Under the pieces are notes generated by a model that was given only the letters and a program-made list of their open reading frames with translations, searched no databases and was not told the origin of the DNA. A stretch of DNA of 25,683 bases from a virus, in the IMG/VR virus record IMGVR_UViG_3300018080_000543, positions 1-25,683 of that record; one strand, 5' to 3'. A program made the translations under genes and the position numbers. Shown here in pieces: positions 7,827-25,683 of the stretch (position 1 is its first letter; each line of letters begins with the position of its first letter).

Positions 7827-8651
7827 ATGAAAAAACAAAACTATCTAAACAACCGAGACTTGCTTACAGAAATACACAAATCCAAAAACAACTTTTCTAG
7901 TTTTACCAAGCCAGAATATGCGGACTATGATGCAATCGTGCATGATATATCAGAAATCAATCAAGATACCATCATTGCAGCAAAAAAATCAAAAGCTAAA
8001 TCACTAAAGCAACGAAATCTAGAACAAGCCCGACAAAAATATCCCAAGGCAAAAGCTTCAGACTTCGACGTTGATTATCAAACCATTGATAAACAAGATC
8101 TTGTATTTAGAGTAATGACATATGATCACATACCCGATGACCCTTCTAGAAAAAAGAATCCTAAATCTGACTCTGATTTCAAAATAAAATTGAACTTTCC
8201 CCCTTTTCAACACTTTAAATACAATGAAAATGATGAACTTGTGTGCGTGGGAAAAAGTCACTGGATAGGTGACATGGAACACGGGTATTTTTCTTCCGAT
8301 CATGCCCAGGCTACAGAAAAACTAGCACTAATGTGGATGAGACTGTGTGATCGTTATTCAACAAAAGCTAACTTTAGAGGTTATACTTATAACGATGAAA
8401 TGAAAGGTCAAGCTATACTACAACTAGCACAAATAGGACTACAGTTCGATGAATCAAAATCAGATAACCCATTTTCATACTATACTGCTGTTGTCACCAA
8501 TTCATTCGTTCGAGTGATAAATGTAGAGAAAAAGAATCAATCTATCAGAGATGATATACTAGAAATGAACAATCTCAATCCTAGTTACACACGCCAGCAC
8601 AACGAAGAGTGGCAATCATCACTTCGAAATCAAATCATCAACGATGCATGA
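7827..8651 (+). CDS. gp55: Late-transcription sigma factor gp55
   Basis: The start is the ATG at 7827, chosen because AGGAGG (7817-7822) stands just before it and a consensus promoter ends at 7808; a longer frame opening at 7617 would run through both and into the baseplate gene. The 274-residue product is longer than T4 gp55 (185), with a charged, probably flexible N-terminal half. The C-terminal half carries the sigma-like core: KLALMWMRLCDRYSTKANFR, then DNPFSYYTAVVTNSFVRVI and KKNQSIRDDILEMN, as in marine T4-like gp55. gp55 lets host polymerase recognise TATAAATA late promoters, several of which occur in this window. The last 8 bases overlap the next gene. Confidence 0.92.
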   Translation: MKKQNYLNNRDLLTEIHKSKNNFSSFTKPEYADYDAIVHDISEINQDTIIAAKKSKAKSLKQRNLEQARQKYPKAKASDFDVDYQTIDKQDLVFRVMTYDHIPDDPSRKKNPKSDSDFKIKLNFPPFQHFKYNENDELVCVGKSHWIGDMEHGYFSSDHAQATEKLALMWMRLCDRYSTKANFRGYTYNDEMKGQAILQLAQIGLQFDESKSDNPFSYYTAVVTNSFVRVINVEKKNQSIRDDILEMNNLNPSYTRQHNEEWQSSLRNQIINDA

Positions 8652-10380
8652 TCTAGATCAAGAAATCAAAAATCTTGCCGATAATAGCAGACTCACATAC
8701 AAAAAACTCATGTCATCAAAGTATGCACATGAGTTTTCAAGCATGTCTTCTAGACTAGGCACTAAAAACGCTCGTCAAATAATCTATCATGTTTCCAATA
8801 ACATTCATTATATACCTAAGTGCGCATGCGGGGAAACGCTAGCATGGAACTCTGACGAGCGAAACTACCGCAAATACTGTAGTAAAAAGTGTTCAGCAAA
8901 ATACACAGTAGCACAGAAAAAACAAGATAATATAAAAAAATACGGTGTAGAATGGCATTCACAAACCGATGCATGGTCTGAAAAAGTAAAACAAACAAGT
9001 CTAGAAAAATATGGAGCAGAGCACTACTCGAAAACCAAAGAGTTTGTAGAATCCGTAAAGAAAACCAGTATTGAAAAATACGGAACAGATCACTGCATGA
9101 AAAATACTGATATAAAAAAGAAACTAGAAAATACTGTTAACTCACTATACGGATCTTCTTGTGTTCTCAGCAATCAAAACATACGCGAAAAAATAAAAAA
9201 TACCAATATAAAAAAATACGGTGTAGAAAATCCTGCTCAACATGATGGTATACGAGAAAAAATAAAAAATACCAATATAAAAAAATACGGTGTAGAAAAT
9301 CCTGCTCAAAATCACGGTATTCGAAAAAATATCATATCTACGAGAAAATCTAATCATTATACTCCTGAGACATTAAACAAAATAAATGATGCTGAATATC
9401 TAAGCAAATTGAACATACAAGGAAAAACTCTAGGAGAAATAGCACAAGATCTAGATACCAGTCCTGGTAATATATCTTGCGTATTTCAACGATTGAATAT
9501 TCCTGTACTACGTCATCAACATAGTAGTGAAGAAAACAAGATATACAACTATTTTTTCAGTGATTTCTCTATAACTAGAAATTCCAGAAATCTTATAAGT
9601 CCTCGTGAAATAGACTTGTATTTTGATGATTATCGCTTGGGAATAGAAATAAATGGTGTATATTTTCATTCAGAAAAATTCAAATCTGATCCTAACTATC
9701 ACTTATCCAAACTGGAACTCGCACAAAAAAATAATATAACTTTGCTTCAGTTTTGGGATTTTGAAGTTAATAACAGCTTTGACACTGTAGTAAACATCAT
9801 AAAAAGCAAGCTAGGCGTTATCAGTACACGAATACATGCTAGAAAAACACAAGTAGTTAACCTCAACACTAGACAAAAAAGTGATTTTTTAAACAAGTAT
9901 CACTTGCAGAAAAACTGCGGTTCTAGCATAAACTTGGGTCTAGAGTACAATAATGAACTAGTTTGTGTAGCTGCTTTTTCTAGAAATAGGTTTTCTAAAA
10001 AACATCGTTATGAATTAATAAGACTATGCACCAAGCACAATATATATGTTGCAGGAGGTGCCAGTAAGCTATTATCTTACTTTAAACGAAACTTCATGAA
10101 TGCTGATGATAAACTGGTATCTTATGCTGATCGCAGATATAGTCAGGGAAAAATATATGATAGTTGCGGTTTTTATCTAGAAAGTATTTCCAGACCCGGA
10201 TTCTTTTACATAGACAATCAAGGGCGTTATGCAGGTTCTAGATATCAATGGCAAAAACATCATATGCAAAAAAAGTTGTCTAGATTTGATCCCCGATTGT
10301 CTGCTGTAGAAAACATGAAAAACAACAACTACTATCATGTGTGGGACTGTGGACAACTGGTTTATGTATTAAAAAATTGA
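8644..10380 (+). CDS. Free-standing homing-endonuclease-like protein (zinc finger, KYG repeats, Vsr/EDxHD-type nuclease, Mom-like C-terminal domain)
   Basis: A 578-residue protein inserted between gp55 and gp47, overlapping the gp55 end by 8 bases. In order: a probable zinc site C60, C62, C79, C83; six 23-residue repeats (residues about 98-235) headed by KYGVE or a variant, a NUMOD-like DNA-binding array; a helix-turn-helix-like segment (about 256-288, LGEIAQDLDTSPGNISCVFQ); and a nuclease core with E297, REIDLYFDDYRLGIEINGVY (D324, E335) and FHSE (H342), then LLQFWDFEV, fitting the EDxHD/Vsr-type fold of phage homing endonucleases. Residues about 400-560 (YELIRLCTKHNIYVAGGASK, VSYADRRYSQG, YRYQWQK-like end) look like the Mom/GNAT-like domain that I recall following such nucleases; its role is unclear. 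No catalytic residue looks lost, so it is probably active. The nuclease class is inferred from motifs only. Confidence 0.75.
   Translation: MHDLDQEIKNLADNSRLTYKKLMSSKYAHEFSSMSSRLGTKNARQIIYHVSNNIHYIPKCACGETLAWNSDERNYRKYCSKKCSAKYTVAQKKQDNIKKYGVEWHSQTDAWSEKVKQTSLEKYGAEHYSKTKEFVESVKKTSIEKYGTDHCMKNTDIKKKLENTVNSLYGSSCVLSNQNIREKIKNTNIKKYGVENPAQHDGIREKIKNTNIKKYGVENPAQNHGIRKNIISTRKSNHYTPETLNKINDAEYLSKLNIQGKTLGEIAQDLDTSPGNISCVFQRLNIPVLRHQHSSEENKIYNYFFSDFSITRNSRNLISPREIDLYFDDYRLGIEINGVYFHSEKFKSDPNYHLSKLELAQKNNITLLQFWDFEVNNSFDTVVNIIKSKLGVISTRIHARKTQVVNLNTRQKSDFLNKYHLQKNCGSSINLGLEYNNELVCVAAFSRNRFSKKHRYELIRLCTKHNIYVAGGASKLLSYFKRNFMNADDKLVSYADRRYSQGKIYDSCGFYLESISRPGFFYIDNQGRYAGSRYQWQKHHMQKKLSRFDPRLSAVENMKNNNYYHVWDCGQLVYVLKN
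9181..9318 (+). repeat. Tandem 69-bp repeat inside the homing-endonuclease-like gene
   Basis: Two near-identical 69-base copies start at 9181 and 9250, and a third partial copy starts at 9319. Each encodes one 23-residue unit beginning IREKIKNTNIKKYGVENPAQ. Older copies upstream are conserved only at protein level, so this pair is a recent duplication within the DNA-binding array. Confidence 0.9.
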
Positions 10381-17618: not shown

Positions 17619-17644
17619 AAAAGTTGCTTGCGAGAGCAACTTTT
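17619..17644. terminator. Bidirectional terminator between convergent genes
   Basis: AAAAGTTGCT (17619-17628), loop TGCGAG, AGCAACTTTT (17635-17644) is a perfect 10-pair stem. It ends in T's on the plus strand and is preceded by an A-run that gives T's on the minus strand, so it can stop transcription from both sides. The minus-strand frameshift extension ends inside the stem (stop codon 17643-17645). Confidence 0.85.
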
Positions 17645-17873
17645 AATAAAAAGGCATACCTGTTTTTTTGGTAATTTCTAGATTTTCATCAATTATTTTA
17701 GCTATAATTTCTCGTTCTTCATGACCTATTATAAAAGCATCTTCATAAGTCAATCCACCTCTCATATACCAACAGAGTTTGGATATGTCATGCTTTAATT
17801 GTTTGGTTTCTTGTTCTAACTTATAAACTTCGTCTAGAAATTCAGGTATACTATAAGTTAGAATCTTTATCCG
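17643..17873 (-). CDS. Frameshift-encoded C-terminal extension of the gp26-like protein
   Basis: An open frame of 76 sense codons lies in the -1 frame relative to the upstream gp26-like gene and continues straight out of the slippery run at its end. Product: RIKILTYSIPEFLDEVYKLE, a polar helix, SKLCWYMRGGLTYEDAFIIG, HEEREIIAKIIDENLEITKK and TGMPFY. The frame has no ATG or ribosome site near its beginning; the only alternatives are ATT at 17862-17864 or a late internal ATG. The SKLCWYMRGGLTYEDA and KKTGMPFY parts resemble a small reading frame that I recall after gp26 in marine T4-like phages. The expected full fusion is about 360 residues. It parallels the G/GT pair of lambda tail assembly chaperones. 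The region is clearly coding in composition; the mode of expression is inferred. Confidence 0.7.
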   Translation of the reverse strand, partial: RIKILTYSIPEFLDEVYKLEQETKQLKHDISKLCWYMRGGLTYEDAFIIGHEEREIIAKIIDENLEITKKTGMPFY

Positions 17874-18724
17874 AAAAAATTTGATTGGTCAAAAGTAATA
17901 GGAACTTCATATACCTCAGGAACACCTTTTTCGATATCTTCAGGAGTAGCTTGTATTTTTAATGGTTTAATGGTGTATTTTTCTTTTTGAGCTTCAATAT
18001 GTGAAATGATGGCACTAAAAAAATCCTTATCAGCATTTTTTATAAATTCTTCTATGTGAAGAGGGTTAGTAACTTCAGTATCTTCTAGAGAAATTTTAGA
18101 TATACTTTGTATTACAGTGTTTATAGTAAGTTCAGTTAGTTTGGTAAATGAATTAGTAAATGCTTGTAGTTTTTCTTGATCATTTATAGACTCATCATTA
18201 ACGATGCTAAAAATTCTTTGTTCTTCAAAGGTTTTTACAGCATTTTTTGTAAATTCTCGGTATGTAAGAGGTCTGATGTGAATTTTCATATCTCCAACTT
18301 CGACAGTTTCATCGAATTCGAGGTTAGAAAAACCATCATATAACAAACGAAGATCTAGTTCATAGTCTCGTTCATCACCGATTACAGGAGTTTTCGTGGA
18401 TATAGAAAGTTTGTCACCATATGTAGCCATTCTAATAGCTATTAAAACAGCGTCTAGATCTATGCTAGGCATCATCCATGCATTCTTTATATTAGGAACA
18501 CAGCTTTGTATGACATCAACAGTTGCTTGGCCGTTTAACAAAGCGTCAGGAGTTTTAAATGCAAGCTCGTCTTTTGCAGTCATAGAATATACAGGATATT
18601 CTTGAGTTTCTGTTTTTTCCAGACTTCCTACATTATAGAATTTGCCGTTGCTGGGTAAACTGATATAGAGTTTTGGTTGTCTAAAGTATTTTTGTAAGGG
18701 GTTGTTGTTTTGCTGTTCGGTCAT
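17867..18724 (-). CDS. gp26: gp26-like baseplate/tail assembly protein
   Basis: A 285-residue protein. The start is the ATG at 18722-18724 behind GGAGG (18731-18735 on the opposite strand); an in-frame ATG seven codons upstream has no ribosome site. Segments KYFRQPKLYISLPSNGKFYN, EYPVYSMTAKDELAFKTPDA, LLNGQATVDVIQSCVPNIKN, LDAVLIAIRMATYGDKLSIS and IHIRPLTYREFTKNAVKTFE are typical of the T4 gp26/gp51 family, which helps build the baseplate hub and is chaperone-like. T4 gp26 is shorter (208). It lies close to the tape-measure-like gene, as tail assembly chaperones do, but is divergent from it. It has its own late promoter. The end carries a slippery run two codons before the stop, suggesting a longer second product. 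Confidence 0.88.
   Translation of the reverse strand: MTEQQNNNPLQKYFRQPKLYISLPSNGKFYNVGSLEKTETQEYPVYSMTAKDELAFKTPDALLNGQATVDVIQSCVPNIKNAWMMPSIDLDAVLIAIRMATYGDKLSISTKTPVIGDERDYELDLRLLYDGFSNLEFDETVEVGDMKIHIRPLTYREFTKNAVKTFEEQRIFSIVNDESINDQEKLQAFTNSFTKLTELTINTVIQSISKISLEDTEVTNPLHIEEFIKNADKDFFSAIISHIEAQKEKYTIKPLKIQATPEDIEKGVPEVYEVPITFDQSNFFG
17873..17882 (-). promoter_or_regulatory. Predicted -1 ribosomal frameshift site
   Basis: The minus strand reads A AAT TTT TTC in the gp26 reading frame, which contains two overlapping X XXY YYZ heptamers (AAATTTT at 17882-17876 and TTTTTTC at 17879-17873). The zero-frame stop TAA comes one codon later (GGA TAA), while the -1 frame is open for 76 codons. The stem of the downstream terminator is too far away to be the stimulator, and I see no obvious close pseudoknot. 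Confidence 0.6.
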
Positions 18725-18752: not shown

Positions 18753-18759
18753 TATTTAT
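18753..18759 (-). promoter_or_regulatory. T4-type late promoter for the gp26-like gene
   Basis: The minus strand reads GATAAATACC with the ATAAATA core 28 bases before the gp26 start, in the short gap after the ADP-ribosyltransferase-like gene. It allows tail assembly expression separate from the kinase operon. Confidence 0.6.
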
Positions 18760-18791
18760 CAGAGGTTTTTCAAGTGAAAAAATATTATAAT

Positions 18792-19136
18792 CTAGTCTAT
18801 TATTTCTTGATCTATGATAAAACCGCCATCAGCAGTATATATATTCATGCCTTTTTGCTGTTTAAACAAGCGAAGATTCAAAGGTACAACTGTATATACA
18901 ACTGATCGTCCTCCCCATATCCTACGTGCTCTTCCGCTGTATATACGAGCATATTTTTTGCTATCAGACAAGAATATGATGTCATTATTCTTCTTTCGTT
19001 GTTGTTCAGTAGAATTGCCAGACTTGCCTGCAGGGATTATACTATCACCGATATCTAGTCCGTGTGCAGTGGTAGTACCGTGGAACACTATTCTAGGAAG
19101 ATCATCGTTGGTTAAGTAATCAAATACAGACTTCAT
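18792..19136 (-). CDS. ADP-ribosyltransferase-fold protein (Arr/KptA-like)
   Basis: A 114-residue protein. RIVFHGTTTAHGLDIGDSII (H19-G20-T21 and GD at 30-31), NDIIFLSDSKKYARIYS (about 52-67), GGRSVVYTVVP (about 75-85) and the closing GGFIIDQEIID follow the order of strands in small ADP-ribosyltransferases such as rifampin ADP-ribosyltransferase (HGT, GD.I.PG, a Y/F-x-T/S strand, then GR..VY.V.P). The conserved His is present; the second and third NAD-contacting residues are less certain, so activity is not assured. RNA 2'-phosphotransferase relatives share the fold and are an alternative. The start codon shares one base with the stop of the kinase-like gene (TAATG), so both are made from one late transcript. 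T4 uses ADP-ribosyltransferases (Alt, ModA, ModB) to modify host polymerase, which makes a host-takeover role plausible but unproven. Confidence 0.65.
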   Translation of the reverse strand: MKSVFDYLTNDDLPRIVFHGTTTAHGLDIGDSIIPAGKSGNSTEQQRKKNNDIIFLSDSKKYARIYSGRARRIWGGRSVVYTVVPLNLRLFKQQKGMNIYTADGGFIIDQEIID

Positions 19137-19774
19137 TATTTTTTTATTTGATCCCGTCCGGTGGTGAAAACATCCGGATTAGGTTCATACGGATCAATGG
19201 AAAAATCCATTTTTTCAGGCTTGAACCAATTATAGAACGGATCAATAATAACAACTTGATCGCCTCTCATCATTATATTTTCATTGTGAAGATCAAATAT
19301 ATTAGAATTTTTATTAAACAGATCAAGTATAGAATTTATATTTTCATCGTTTGTTCTATATGAATTATCATCTTCCCAACGACTTATAATAGTAGCAAAT
19401 TGATCAACACTGTCATGCATGCCTCGTATGGGTTTTAGTTTTTCTATTCTCACTGCATAAAAAATAGACGTTAGTTTAGAAACTTTTCCTCGTATTTTGG
19501 GAACATAAGGATTTTGCTGATTGTTCATGCAAAATCGTAACCATCTCATATATGCAGTATCACGCATGAAAATCTTTATAGCATATGGATAACTAGAATT
19601 AATGAATACTGTGCCGTATTTTCCTGTGCCAGAGTTGTTAAAACCATATTCTTGAAATGCTTGATTTAATAAACTCTGCCAACTTGTATCACGAGAGTCT
19701 ATATTTTTTATTTTTGACAAATCGCTTTTAACACCTGATAATTGACGAGGTTTGTTAAGCTCGTTTATTCTCAT
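19136..19774 (-). CDS. Protein-kinase-like protein
   Basis: A 212-residue protein with the compact kinase-fold landmarks: glycine-rich loop GTGKYGTVF (residues 49-57), YPYAIKIF with the ATP-binding Lys K67, FYAVRIEKLKPIRGMHDS as the hinge region, the catalytic loop FDLHNENIMMRG (D161, N166) and VVIIDPFYNW with D178 as the metal-binding Asp. The D-L-H-x-x-N form is closer to APH/choline-kinase and bacterial kinases than to eukaryotic HRD kinases. The lobe after D178 is very short, so the substrate site is reduced. The substrate is unknown. The N-terminus MRINELNKP resembles the starts of two probable virion proteins nearby (MKFNEI, MNLSDL). It is the first gene of a two-gene operon with the ADP-ribosyltransferase-like gene; AAGGATGGG serves as ribosome site. 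Confidence 0.68.
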   Translation of the reverse strand: MRINELNKPRQLSGVKSDLSKIKNIDSRDTSWQSLLNQAFQEYGFNNSGTGKYGTVFINSSYPYAIKIFMRDTAYMRWLRFCMNNQQNPYVPKIRGKVSKLTSIFYAVRIEKLKPIRGMHDSVDQFATIISRWEDDNSYRTNDENINSILDLFNKNSNIFDLHNENIMMRGDQVVIIDPFYNWFKPEKMDFSIDPYEPNPDVFTTGRDQIKK

Positions 19775-19878: not shown

Positions 19879-22800
19879 ATGGTTGATGAAGTCAAAATTG
19901 TAGATGTTGCAGGAGGACCTGCAGCAGAAGCTACTTTACAAGAATTGCTAAAAACCGTCAAGAAAATTGCCAAAGATTGTTGCAATAGTTCAAAGCCTGA
20001 ATCTAAAGTACAAAGTCTCTATGAAAAATCAGTGGCACAAGGCACTAAGTCGCAGAAAAAAAATACTGCGGCACTAGATAATAGCACCACTAGTTTGAAT
20101 AGATTCTCAGATGCGCTTAAACGAGCATGGGGATTTTTTGGAAATCTAGCATCAGGTATAGCAAATCTACTAGGAAAATTCACTGAACTAGCAATCGGTT
20201 TGACCAATGCTAAAACCATGGGAGAACTCTTGGGCAAACTCCCCTTGGTTGGAAGTATTCTAGAAAAAATGACTGGCTATTATCAAGAAGGTGCAAATGC
20301 CTTGCGTGAGTTATCTAGTGTAGGTGCAGGTTTTAATAATAGCTTGATAGATCTTAAACGATCTGCTGCAGAAGCTGCACTCCCGTTTGATACCTTTGTG
20401 AATATTATACACAGAAATTCAGAATCCATGTTATTCTTAGGAGGAACTGTTACTGAAGGGGCAAAAAGATTTGGCAAGCTTACTAAAACTCTAAGGACCA
20501 GTGAGTCTAGTCTTCTAAGCTTGGGTTATACCATGGAAAGCTTGAGCGAGCACACTGCTGGCTATCTACAACTCCAAGCTAGATCAGGCAAGCTTAATCA
20601 AATGACTGATGCACAGTTGTTAAAAGGTTCACAACAGTATCTTTATGAACTTGATAGGCTAGCAAAGATAACAGGAAGATCTAGAAAAGAACAAGAAGAC
20701 ATAATGAATAGGCAAGCTGCAGAAGCTAATGTAGCTGCTATGCAAGCTCGCTTGAGTGGAGAAGCTCTGCAGAATTTCAGAGGTAATCTATCACAAGCTG
20801 CTATGCTAGGACCTGAAATGGAAAATGCATTCAAAGACCTAGCAGACGGAGTAGCTCAAACTGATCTAGGTAAAAAAATATCAGCACTTTCTCCGGAATT
20901 TGCAAGACTGGCACAAGATGCAGCAGCAGGAACTGTTACTCAAGAAGAATTTGTAAAAAGAATGCAATCTTCGGCAAAAACCTTGATAGACTTTAGTAAT
21001 GGCATGGGAGCAGCTGGCATACAAGCATTGATGACTCAAGGAGGATTCAGCGAATTATTAGGGTCGATGGGAACACTCAATGAATATGTCAGCAAAAAAA
21101 TGGATCCCAAAAATGCTGAAAATGAATCAAAGCGCAGGGAACAAATAACTGATACCTTCTTTAAATTTGAACAAGTGATGACTAGTATCAGAAAAACCAT
21201 AGAAAAAGCTTTGATAGACAGCGGCATCATAGAACTAGTAGGAACAGGTCTTACATCGTTATCAGAAATAATAACAACTTCTGGCGTAGAATTAACAAAT
21301 TTGTTCAAAGATCTAGTAGATAACCCTGATTTTAAATCATTGTTTACAGATACTAGTATGTGGGTAGAACGTTTGAAAACACAAGCGTTGGAATTTATCA
21401 AGAATATAAAAAATCTAGACTTCAAAGAAGTAGTTGAACAGTATTTTCCTGAAGGAATAGACTCTATTGTATCAGGTACAGCAGAAATTATAAAAGATTC
21501 TGTATCATCTATATTTTCTTTTATAGGAAAAAGTATAGTAGACGGGTTTAGTTCTATGTTTGCTAATCCGGTTGTTGTAGGATCAGTAGCTGCTGCAATA
21601 GCTGCATTTTTTGCTGGTAAAAAACTATTAGGTGCTATGTCTTTTGGTGGGTCCGGTGGGTCTGGTGGATCTGGCGGATCCGGAGGCAGCAGCGGAGGCT
21701 CCGGGGCACTAGGGAAAATAGGAAGAGGTCTAGGAGGACTAGGCGGAGGCATCATACAAGGTTTGTCTGAAGGTCTTGCAGCAGCAGGAGCAGTTGCGCC
21801 TAAGATGATTTTAGGTGCTACTGCTATAGGAACATCCATAACTCTGATTGGAGCAGGTATAGCAGGTGCAACTTGGATTCTAGGAAAAGCTTTGCCTAGC
21901 TTCAGTGAAGGTCTTAGATCATTTGAAGATATTAACGGGGATAATCTTAAAAACACAGCAGCGGGTATGTTAGCTCTGAGCGGAGCAATGGCAGCGTTTG
22001 GAGGCGGGTCGGTTGTGTCAGGCATAGGAAATCTAGTAGGTAGTATTGCTGATGGTATAGCTGGACTGTTTGGCGGAAATGATCCTATGGAAAAGCTAGA
22101 AAGATTTTCTTCTTATAATATAAATGCTGCTCGCGTTAAAAGTAATGCCGAAGCTTTGATTGCATACAGCGAAGCTATATCATCATCTGGGCTAGGACAA
22201 GCTGCCTCGGGTATATCTGGAATAGTCGGAGGAATAGCTAATGGAATTTTGTCACTGTTTGGAAAAGAAAAGATTCCATTCAAGGAATTAGAAAAATTTG
22301 CAGGATATCGACTGCAAACTACAAAAATAAAAGCCAATGCTGAAGCTATTATTGCTTTTAGTTCTGCTATGTCAGCTTTGTCAAAATTAAATATGGGATC
22401 TGGATTTTCTCGTGTGGTTAGTTCAGTCTTTGAAGGTATAGCTAACTTCTTTTCAGCAAGTAAAGAATTGCCTATTACTGAAATCCGCAGATTTGCTTCG
22501 ATGTCTTTGTCTGATGATAACATAAGAGAAAATTTTAGAATACTGACGTTGTTCGGGGAAACTATAAAGCAGCTTCCTGAAGAAATGAACGGTGAGCGAA
22601 AAGGCGGTATTTTTGAACTGATTACTAGTGTATTTGTAGGCAGCAAAGAAGTTCCTTGGAATAGCTTGCTAGATTTTGGTAATATGAAATTGCCTTCGTC
22701 ACTGCCTGATAAAATAGAATTGCTAGCAGCGTTCGGTAGAGCTATATCAGCATTACCTGATAATATAAACGGGGAACGAGCAGGAGGATTATTTGGAGCT

Positions 22801-25683
22801 ATAGCTTCGATATTTGCAGGTGGTAAGAAACTTCCCTATGATGAATTAAAGAAGTTTTCTAAAGTACAGATAAACCGTGAAGGTGTAGAGAACAACGCAA
22901 AAGCTGTTGTATCTTTTTCAGAAGCATTGAAAAAACTTACTGGTGTCCCTGATGTAAATTCTGTATTTGAAAACATAGATTCAAAAGAAATGGTTGAAAA
23001 ACTAGTTTCATTCCAATCACATGCCTTTGATCTAGATACAATAAAAAATAATTCTCAGGGTCTTCGTGAATTTTTATCCAGTTTCAGCGATATTAAGATA
23101 CAGATAAAACTAAAAGAAATTTCAGATATAAATGTTTCGGATATTAGGGAAAAAATACTAGAATTTACCAAAAGCAAGTTTGATAATTCAATTATAGAAT
23201 CTAACTCAAATGCAATAACCACATGGTTTAGCGCACTAGAACTTTTATCTAATGTTCCTTCTATACCTGATACTTTTTATAAAATAAACACTGCAGGCAT
23301 ACTAGAAACAATAGATCCTGCACAACGAACTGCGTTGTCATTATCTACTATCGAGAACAATTCACAAGCTCTTCAGTCTTTTAGTGCAGGATTGTTATCA
23401 TTGAAAGATGTTCCTTCTACAAGTGTATTATCTGCTATCACAGAATCACTAGAAATAGTTGCGCATCCTAGCTTTTTCAGCAAAATAGAACAAATAAGTA
23501 ACTCTGATTTGAATCTAGGAAATCTAGAAGCATTTTCTAGTGCTATGTTAACTATAGGGAATAGTTTTTCAGGGATAAGAGCAGATATAGATTCAGCGTC
23601 TATTATGTCTATAGCAGATAGTTTAAACTTGCTTAGCAAGTCAGGATCTGTTATAGATAATTTATCTATCATTAGTTCCGCGAACATAGATTCTAAAAAA
23701 ATACTCATGAATATAAAAGCTATTCAGTTTTATAATTCAATGATATCTGGTGTAAAAGAATTCACTAGTTGGGATTCATTAACTGCTTTATCAGATAGTT
23801 TATCTATGGTTGCTGACACTGTTATTAACAAATTACAAGAATTCAGTGAATATAAAATAGATAAGCGGGGTGCAGTTACTAATATAATGTCCCTTAAATT
23901 ATTTGGTGAGGTTCTTGGCGATATAAAATCATTAACAGATCCTAAATCATTGAGTTCTATAGTACAAGGTTTCCATATACTGCTAGGCAATAATAACTTA
24001 GTAAGTAAGATGCAGGAATTCTCTGCTCACGAAATAAACAGAAGCAGTTTAGTAACAAATGTCATGTCTCTTAAATTATTTGGAGAAGTGCTCAGTGATA
24101 TAAAATCATTAACAGATCCTAAATCATTGAGTTCTATAGTACAAGGTTTCCATATACTGCTAGGTAATAACTTAGTAAGTAAGATGCAGGAATTCTCTGC
24201 TCATGAAATAGATAGAAACAGTGTAGTAACAAATGTTATGTCACTAAAAATGTTTGCTGAAGTTTTGAGCGGTATTACTTCACTAGCAGATCCTAAATCG
24301 TTAAGTTCTATAGTACAAGGTTTCCATATACTGCTAGGTAATAATGATATAGCAAATAAACTATTAGAATTCGGCAGTTATTCTATTGATAGAAAATCTG
24401 TAGAAAGTAATCTGTATGCGCTAGAATCTTTTGGAAATACACTTGCAAATATTACTTCACTAGCAGATCCTAAATCATTGAGTTCTATAGTACAAGGTTT
24501 CCATATACTGTTTGCAAATAACAGTCTAGCAGAAAATCTAGAAAAATTTGGAAATTATGCAATAAACTCAGATGGAGTAACAAATAACATAGATTCATTA
24601 AGAATGTTCGGCCAGGTATTATCTAATATGACAAGCTTAGCTGACACAAAATCTGTTGAGTCTATAATGCAAGGATTTCAAACTTTATTCACTGATAAAA
24701 CTCTGATTAAAAATTTGCAGAGTTTCAGCGGGTTGGATATCAATAATGAAAGTATACAACGTAACACAGAATCTTTAGCAGTTTTTGCAGCAGCGATTAA
24801 TGATATCAGTTCTTATTCTAGTGTATCAAATATCAGTGAAGTGATAAGTTCTATTCAAGAAGTCTTATCTGATTCAAATTTAATTAAAAAACTACAAGAA
24901 TTCCAAGGTTATGAGCTTGATATTGACAAGATAAAAACTAATATCAGTGCATTATCAATTCTTCAAAATAGTTTGTCAGATATAAATTCTTCTACAGATT
25001 CATCTTCTACAGAAGGGATGCTATCTCAGTTATCATTGTTGTTTAACAATACATCTTTGTTAAAGCAGATGCAAAACTTTGGATCTTATGATATAAATTC
25101 TTCCGGAATAGAAAACAACGCTAGAACATTAAGTGTTTTGGGACGTATAATAAGCGAAACATCGCTGATAACGGATATAAGTTCACTGAGTTCCGTAATA
25201 GAAGGATTCAATCTTTTATTTTCTAATAGAGATCTGCTTACTAGACTACAAGAATTTGGAAATTATGGAATTAATCTAGACGGAGTTTCTACTAATACAC
25301 GTGCTATTGAGGTTTTCAGCAAAACTATATCTTCAATTACTTCACTAATAGATGTAAAATCGTTATATTCAATAGTTGAAGGATTCAATTTACTATTTTC
25401 CAGAAGTAATGTTGTTGAAAGACTGCAAGATTTTGGATCATATAAAATAAACCTAGATGGAGTTACTGCTAATACTCGCGCATTAGGTATATTCGGAAAA
25501 ACTATATCTTCAATAACGACTTTAGCAAACACAGATGTCTTGGGTTCTATACTAGATGGGTTTAATATCTTGACAAACAATCAAGATGTTATGCTTAATC
25601 TTCAGAAAATAGGAAACTATGATATAAATCTAGATGGAGTTACTGCTAATACACGTGCTTTAAGTATATTCGGAAAAACTATA
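19879..25683 (+). CDS. Giant tape-measure-like tail protein (partial, C-terminus outside window)
   Basis: The first 1,935 codons are visible and the frame is open to the right edge. An ATG at 19868 is in another frame and ends quickly, so 19879 (MVDEVKIVDVAGGPAAEATL) is the start; the ribosome site is weak (CTGG). Residues 1-540 are helical with amphipathic stretches (RAWGFFGNLASGIANLLGKF, then helices rich in Gln/Ala). Hydrophobic segments at about 543-587 and 640-676 (VVVGSVAAAIAAFFAGKKLL; ILGATAIGTSITLIGAGIAG) flank a GGSGGSGGSGGS linker at about 589-609. From about residue 737 to the edge are roughly twenty helical repeats of about 59 residues. Tape measures set tail length and enter the host membrane; helix content, hydrophobic segments, late promoter and the nearby gp26-like gene favour this. 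T4 gp29 is only 590 residues, so the length is striking, and a different virion role is possible. Confidence 0.65.
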   Translation, partial: MVDEVKIVDVAGGPAAEATLQELLKTVKKIAKDCCNSSKPESKVQSLYEKSVAQGTKSQKKNTAALDNSTTSLNRFSDALKRAWGFFGNLASGIANLLGKFTELAIGLTNAKTMGELLGKLPLVGSILEKMTGYYQEGANALRELSSVGAGFNNSLIDLKRSAAEAALPFDTFVNIIHRNSESMLFLGGTVTEGAKRFGKLTKTLRTSESSLLSLGYTMESLSEHTAGYLQLQARSGKLNQMTDAQLLKGSQQYLYELDRLAKITGRSRKEQEDIMNRQAAEANVAAMQARLSGEALQNFRGNLSQAAMLGPEMENAFKDLADGVAQTDLGKKISALSPEFARLAQDAAAGTVTQEEFVKRMQSSAKTLIDFSNGMGAAGIQALMTQGGFSELLGSMGTLNEYVSKKMDPKNAENESKRREQITDTFFKFEQVMTSIRKTIEKALIDSGIIELVGTGLTSLSEIITTSGVELTNLFKDLVDNPDFKSLFTDTSMWVERLKTQALEFIKNIKNLDFKEVVEQYFPEGIDSIVSGTAEIIKDSVSSIFSFIGKSIVDGFSSMFANPVVVGSVAAAIAAFFAGKKLLGAMSFGGSGGSGGSGGSGGSSGGSGALGKIGRGLGGLGGGIIQGLSEGLAAAGAVAPKMILGATAIGTSITLIGAGIAGATWILGKALPSFSEGLRSFEDINGDNLKNTAAGMLALSGAMAAFGGGSVVSGIGNLVGSIADGIAGLFGGNDPMEKLERFSSYNINAARVKSNAEALIAYSEAISSSGLGQAASGISGIVGGIANGILSLFGKEKIPFKELEKFAGYRLQTTKIKANAEAIIAFSSAMSALSKLNMGSGFSRVVSSVFEGIANFFSASKELPITEIRRFASMSLSDDNIRENFRILTLFGETIKQLPEEMNGERKGGIFELITSVFVGSKEVPWNSLLDFGNMKLPSSLPDKIELLAAFGRAISALPDNINGERAGGLFGAIASIFAGGKKLPYDELKKFSKVQINREGVENNAKAVVSFSEALKKLTGVPDVNSVFENIDSKEMVEKLVSFQSHAFDLDTIKNNSQGLREFLSSFSDIKIQIKLKEISDINVSDIREKILEFTKSKFDNSIIESNSNAITTWFSALELLSNVPSIPDTFYKINTAGILETIDPAQRTALSLSTIENNSQALQSFSAGLLSLKDVPSTSVLSAITESLEIVAHPSFFSKIEQISNSDLNLGNLEAFSSAMLTIGNSFSGIRADIDSASIMSIADSLNLLSKSGSVIDNLSIISSANIDSKKILMNIKAIQFYNSMISGVKEFTSWDSLTALSDSLSMVADTVINKLQEFSEYKIDKRGAVTNIMSLKLFGEVLGDIKSLTDPKSLSSIVQGFHILLGNNNLVSKMQEFSAHEINRSSLVTNVMSLKLFGEVLSDIKSLTDPKSLSSIVQGFHILLGNNLVSKMQEFSAHEIDRNSVVTNVMSLKMFAEVLSGITSLADPKSLSSIVQGFHILLGNNDIANKLLEFGSYSIDRKSVESNLYALESFGNTLANITSLADPKSLSSIVQGFHILFANNSLAENLEKFGNYAINSDGVTNNIDSLRMFGQVLSNMTSLADTKSVESIMQGFQTLFTDKTLIKNLQSFSGLDINNESIQRNTESLAVFAAAINDISSYSSVSNISEVISSIQEVLSDSNLIKKLQEFQGYELDIDKIKTNISALSILQNSLSDINSSTDSSSTEGMLSQLSLLFNNTSLLKQMQNFGSYDINSSGIENNARTLSVLGRIISETSLITDISSLSSVIEGFNLLFSNRDLLTRLQEFGNYGINLDGVSTNTRAIEVFSKTISSITSLIDVKSLYSIVEGFNLLFSRSNVVERLQDFGSYKINLDGVTANTRALGIFGKTISSITTLANTDVLGSILDGFNILTNNQDVMLNLQKIGNYDINLDGVTANTRALSIFGKTI
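22090..25683 (+). repeat. Array of about 59-residue (177-bp) repeats in the giant tail protein
   Basis: Units share the frame L..F..Y.I....V..N...L..FG..L..I..L.......S...GF..L..N. Units are highly diverged at the left and much closer at the right. In 23881-24510, the 20-base string AGTTCTATAGTACAAGGTTT recurs at 23953, 24130, 24304 and 24481 (steps of 177, 174 and 177). A second close family with CTAGATGGAGT or a near variant recurs at 25276, 25453 and 25630 (steps of 177). The array continues beyond the right edge. Confidence 0.9.

Follow-up and report, generated by a model that had tools for sequence, protein, structure and literature searches.

An earlier note on this viral DNA raised the question of whether a gp26-like gene ends in a programmed -1 frameshift, so that one gene would encode a short and a long protein after the manner of the lambda tail chaperones G and GT. 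We examined it in the window, the whole analyzed stretch of 25,683 bases, which is a virus fragment from an uncultivated marine T4-like virus allied to the jumbo phages Phosso and Atu_ph07. A slippery site and its conservation, a conserved extension, a downstream stem and a pair of T4 paralogues can be read from the sequence. Very probably, -1 slippage on T TTT TTC allows one gene to yield two tail assembly chaperones here, one short and one long. The device is genuine and ancient, and the window is a new example of it; according to papers that cite the original work, it was reported for T4-like phages in 2022.

The gp26-like open reading frame starts at ATG 18724, preceded by a GGAGG ribosome site, and its 3' end reads TCA AAT TTT TTC GGA TAA. 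Its product matches Pfam family PF12322 (T4_baseplate; E = 6.9e-10, 39.4 bits against a curated cut-off of 24.5) and phrog_150 (baseplate hub; E = 1.6e-12). The AlphaFold2 model of the short form is confident (mean pLDDT 85.5), and its top viral match in Foldseek is annotated 'Baseplate hub assembly protein, bacteriophage T4-like' (E = 2.9e-23, TM 0.86); phiKZ-like, Campylobacter and Bacillus phages supply weaker hits. Solved structures gave no Foldseek match to this model at E <= 0.001, in a library that may not include gpG, and sequence searches with gp26 or gp51 found no meaningful solved structure. Uncharacterized proteins of ~500 amino acids from the phiKZ-like jumbo phages Erwinia Special G, Ralstonia RSF1 and RP12, and phiEaH2 share the gp26 fold (Foldseek BFVD, E from 1e-7 to 3e-3), and they may be chaperones as well. 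At about 18755-18770 on the minus strand, ~40 bases 5' of the gp26 start, we noted by eye the sequence TGATAAATA, which is like the T4 late promoter TATAAATA.

Slippage by -1 on T TTT TTC yields ...SNFF followed by RIKILTYSIPEFLDEVYKLEQETKQLKHDISKLCWYMRGGLTYEDAFIIGHEEREIIAKIIDENLEITKKTGMPFY, and the tail of the window thus reads ...NFF-RIKILTYS...KTGMPFY up to its stop codon (Table 1). The earlier note had described this frame as open for 76 codons from the slip and as having no start codon of its own, and we find both to be correct: ATG, GTG and TTG are all missing from tail codons 1-25. Start codons in the tails of other loci occupy inconsistent positions, and a Shine-Dalgarno sequence is absent from nearly all of them. 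Searched alone, the tail has no match in Pfam, nothing significant in PHROG and no relative in a scan of viral contigs; tblastn with the -1 tail found Phosso (1e-9) and Atu_ph07 (3e-6).

Table 1. Features of the gp26-like locus in the window
Feature	Position	Strand	Basis or detail
gp26-like gene, short form (TAC-N / G-like), 285 aa	17867..18724	-	PF12322, phrog_150, AlphaFold2, Foldseek
Slippery heptamer T TTT TTC, likely operative -1 site	17873..17879	-	conservation in relatives, codon choice
Overlapping heptamer A AAT TTT, accessory or incidental	17876..17882	-	in frame; window's own clade only
-1 frame tail (TAC-C / T-like extension), 76 codons	17646..17873	-	stop 17645-17643; translation, start-codon scan, tblastn
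Stem-loop, 13 bp including one G-U, A/U-rich	17814..17863	-	arms 17863-17851 and 17826-17814

By tblastn, Sinorhizobium phage Phosso and Agrobacterium phage Atu_ph07 carry both parts in two frames, and the short form is present in RaK2-, 121Q-, GAP32-, PA5oct- and Eneladus-type jumbo phages. At the end of the gp26-like gene all 11 jumbo loci examined carry T TTT TTC or T TTT TTT, and their -1 frame stays open for 58-75 codons beyond the stop, starting with FFR in 9 of them. Scans of viral contigs contributed 19 closer relatives, 80 cyanophage-like loci and 3 RaK2/121Q-like loci. The conservation that the earlier note had proposed to look for is evident in the collected set: T TTT TTY lies immediately 5' of the gp26 stop in 117 of 118 related loci (contig ends truncate two of the 118), and the -1 tail is unbroken in every locus except one. 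Elsewhere in the same open reading frames T TTT TTN occurs at a background rate of ~2e-4 per codon, so that the site before the gp26 stop is not there by chance. The one disrupted tail, in Synechococcus phage S-SCSM1, follows an ordinary heptamer and lies in the +1 frame, which suggests one indel, either a sequencing error or a real loss. The -1 tail is kept in all IMG/VR relatives, and the same junction is found in phiN3, Nitratidesulfovibrio phage SRB7757, Melnitz-1, Vibrio phage 1.081.O, Aeh1, Moby and two further KVP40-like records. The heptamer is distributed over cyanophages, KVP40-like phages, Aeh1, rhizobiophages and several jumbo-phage genera. Window-type tails match the cyanophage-tail profile weakly (hhalign, E = 0.0055, probability 6.6%), and homology of the extension across all lineages, including the cyanophage/T4 type, is therefore not proven.

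Two overlapping slippery heptamers had been pointed out at the end of the gene. Both T TTT TTC and A AAT TTT are present and in frame with the gp26-like gene, but only T TTT TTC is kept across the relatives. A AAT TTT occurs in no clade other than that of the window, where loci L020-L023 lack it as well, and T TTT TTC is therefore the likely operative site. The codon before TTT TTC is AAT, CAT, AGT, CGT, TAT, GAT, GCT or TCT, so the residue varies while the third-base T is constant, and serine at this position is spelt exclusively as AGT or TCT. Compared with the codon usage of each gene, the choice of T/TTT/TTC has P ~1e-12 for 22 representatives with <60% tail identity and P ~1e-37 for 80 representatives under 90% tail identity, values that disregard shared ancestry and thus overstate the strength of the evidence.

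The stem-loop of the window begins 9 nt 3' of the heptamer (fold z = -2.8) and has a best-stem score of 26, a score of 20 being reached by 0.7% of control stretches. It had escaped the earlier note, whose range for the feature, 17643-18724, stands and takes in the stem-loop as well. Over the 70 nt 3' of the site the mean fold z relative to shuffles is -1.54, compared with -0.66 for stretches inside the same genes, and contiguous stems with a score of at least 20 begin 3-12 nt past the site in 22% of the loci, which are related and not independent, versus 0.7% of controls. In one clade of cyanophages a stem of 11 bp lies 5 nt past the heptamer, and one of its pairs occurs as T-A, G-C and A-T. 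A single downstream structure for all clades can be rejected: consensus folds are empty for the window clade and for the pooled cyanophage rows, and the stem positions are not homologous between clades. The stem is thus a supporting feature and not a defining one.

PF12322 matches two T4 proteins, gp26 (8.8e-64) and gp51 (3.9e-52), and a whole-genome search with this family returned two genes in T4 and one in each of 14 single-gene phages, with SCTP-2 below threshold. The cyanophage -1 tail profile hits the entire T4 genome in a single place, 117106-117222, which is the C-terminus of gene 51 (E = 1.6e-5); the jumbo profile did not recover the tail in a single-sequence hhalign comparison with T4 gp51. 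T4 gp26 ends in ...KEFFELL, with codons TTC TTT and no slippery run. On these sequence grounds gp26 and gp51 are paralogues, and because both belong to PF12322, the tail matches the gp51 C-terminus and gp26 has no run, we assign gp26 as the counterpart of the short form and gp51 as that of the long form, in separate genes. T4 gp26 and gp51 are listed among the hub assembly chaperones, and gp51 is absent from the final particle (PMC3004832). The gp26 copy number and the homology of cyanophage-type tails to gp51 join heptamer conservation, codon selection and stems in bearing out the central proposal, namely that a member of the gp26 family is frameshifted to yield two products, one short and one long. 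The accompanying statement that this T4-like phage uses the lambda-type device is thereby supported for the window virus; T4 itself does not use it and has two genes.

The two-gene state is also found in KARL-1, phiP4-3, Aeromonas phages 31 and phiAS4, and RB43, in all of which gp51 and gp26 are adjacent on the same strand. In a model of a T-even-group gp51 the C-terminal extension is all-helical and of lower confidence. The gp26 and gp51 copies unite within Straboviridae in our tree, next to the frameshifting Aeh1 and KVP40-like phages (support 82-90 by a quick method). The tree thus places the gp26/gp51 duplication later than the split from KVP40/Aeh1, and the simplest reading would be that the frameshift is ancestral and that duplication took its place on the T-even side of Straboviridae.

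A different situation is seen in Ackermannviridae (L127, L134-L148) and Pseudomonas phage Cygsa01, where the -1 tail is kept and ATT TTC replaces TTT TTC. In Cygsa01 the heptamer is missing and a stop and a start codon overlap as TAATG, which would permit coupled initiation. In Ackermannviridae the corresponding letters are TAATT, about the first dozen tail codons include no ATG, GTG or TTG, and the tail might be made via AUU initiation or non-canonical slippage. Both groups share a clade in the tree with Vibrio phage Bakedbeans, which has a normal heptamer, and heptamer loss thus looks derived. Since Cygsa01 and Ackermannviridae keep the tail without the heptamer, the tail can arise in another way, at least there. 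A relative that lacks the slippery run and has a good start codon, the case named beforehand as speaking against frameshifting, hence does exist in Cygsa01, but it belongs to this exception clade and the rule stands.

Could the tail then be a small gene of its own, whose translation reinitiates at, or is coupled to, the gp26 stop? It is annotated as a separate open reading frame in S-RIM8, S-SCSM1, phiN3 and several jumbo phages, cyanophage annotators name it gp51, 'baseplate hub assembly catalyst', and the Cygsa01 overlap without a heptamer fits such a gene. For the window a separate gene with its own start is rejected by the lack of any start codon over the first 25 tail codons, and the inconsistent starts elsewhere, nearly all without Shine-Dalgarno sequences, speak against it as well. 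The fusion of both parts in T4 gp51 makes it unlikely, and a separate gene would not account for a T run that is maintained against codon usage; we consider reinitiation or coupling highly improbable.

Runs of six to seven T can also be slippery for RNA polymerase, and the long form could in principle be translated from slipped transcripts. What is conserved, however, is T TTT TTC in phase with the codons and closed by a C, in most cases with six T, which is too short for strong transcriptional slippage, and a stem 5-9 nt downstream suits ribosomal pausing; we rate slippage by the polymerase as highly improbable. The window comes from a single-contig metagenome, and the S-SCSM1 record seems to hold one extra frame change in the tail, so a sequencing or assembly error, or a decayed gene, has to be considered as well. 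Because 117 loci, taken from complete genomes as well as numerous independent assemblies, show the same junction, we reject this reading, whose probability we regard as negligible.

Under -1 ribosomal slippage on T TTT TTC, most ribosomes would terminate at TAA 17869-17867 and release the 285-residue gp26-like short form. A minority would slip back one base on the heptamer, probably aided by the stem-loop, bypass the stop and produce a 360-residue long form with the 76-residue extension. If lambda G/GT is taken as the model, the abundant short form would cover the tape measure protein, the scarce long form would bring in tail tube subunits through its extension, and both would be missing from the virion. 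We infer the slippage itself, the ratio of the two forms and their binding partners; a role of the gp26-like gene in tail assembly as a chaperone is suggested by the T4 literature together with the lambda precedent. For the group as a whole a broader scenario can be outlined, to which we give slightly less than an even chance: gp26 was ancestrally frameshifted in T4-like, jumbo and related myoviruses, it became two genes once, in Straboviridae, another route was taken in Ackermannviridae and Cygsa01, and lineage-specific stems tune the ratio. That other route could be initiation by coupling, or use of ATT TTC as a non-canonical site, perhaps with AUU as the start codon.

The abstract of the 2022 study by Vladimirov et al. 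reportedly states that frameshifting is conserved in several T4-like groups and that T4 uses genes 26 and 51. The study identified tail assembly chaperone genes of T4-like phages (Vladimirov, Gautam & Davidson, Virology 2022, 566:9-15, doi 10.1016/j.virol.2021.11.003). It is cited in the PRFect paper for some T4-like phages having separate short and long fused chaperone genes without a frameshift (PMC10885494), and in the phage Adele paper for polyT slippery sequences in T4-like TAC-N genes (PMC12846349). The earlier note did not recall this device as described for gp26; judging from these citations, both the frameshift and the two-gene solution of T4 are published. What may be new is the coverage of jumbo and uncultivated marine lineages, the stems 3' of the site and the Ackermannviridae/Cygsa01 group with a tail but without the heptamer; the polarity, with the duplication placed after the KVP40/Aeh1 split, may be new as well.

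As far as the citing papers describe the T4-like TAC-N/TAC-NC system, the window shares with it the gp26-family short form, the polyT -1 site and the downstream extension, and gp26/gp51 is the two-gene version of T4. With T4 gp26/gp51 the window has PF12322 in common, whereas T4 uses two genes and has neither a heptamer at the gp26 end nor a frameshift. Lambda gpG/gpGT is likewise a short chaperone with a rare -1 long form from one gene (Xu et al. 2004; PMC5009743), and these proteins are not found in the virion (PMC5009743), a property in which the window proteins are likened to them by analogy. A sequence relation to gpG/gpGT is undetectable, however, the site in the window is T TTT TTC and not that of lambda, and the gene lies beside baseplate-type genes, divergent from a large structural gene. 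The window gene would thus be a functional counterpart of lambda G/GT and not necessarily a member of the gpG family. The TAC locus of phage Adele (Vandenendeviridae/Andersonviridae) also has a conserved -1 site, a GTTTTT run at the end of TAC-N, but it belongs to other phage families and lies upstream of the tape measure gene (PMC12846349).

Annotation pipelines split the protein in cyanophages and jumbo phages into a 'baseplate hub subunit' and a stray open reading frame called 'baseplate hub assembly catalyst' or 'hypothetical', and the long form is therefore missing from databases and from proteomic searches. The gathered loci form a natural experiment in which one ancient function is obtained via a frameshift, two genes or possibly coupling, and the reason why tail assembly needs a fixed short-to-long ratio becomes testable in genetically tractable relatives such as T4 and KVP40.

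On the plus strand, two small genes away from gp26 and divergent from it, lies an open-ended reading frame of at least 1935 amino acids with many internal repeats (19879-25683). Its jumbo-phage relatives, also located beside gp26, are annotated as 'virion structural protein' (Erwinia Kaldavass, Xanthomonas XbC2). It has no match in Pfam and a weak PHROG match to a family of unknown function, and we consider it a candidate tape measure protein. The minus-strand gene 19136-19774 encodes a kinase-like protein (phrog_15752, E = 3e-13) and has a poly-A run at its end; it overlaps by TAATG with a conserved gene of unknown function (18792-19136, minus strand, phrog_2110). The poly-A run was considered as a second frameshift site and rejected, as the next gene has its TAATG start, which is ordinary coupling. 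Further away, a 578-residue open reading frame on the plus strand (8644-10380) overlaps the end of the preceding one and contains repeated KYGVENPAQ-type motifs, and by eye it looks like a homing endonuclease inserted beside essential phage genes.
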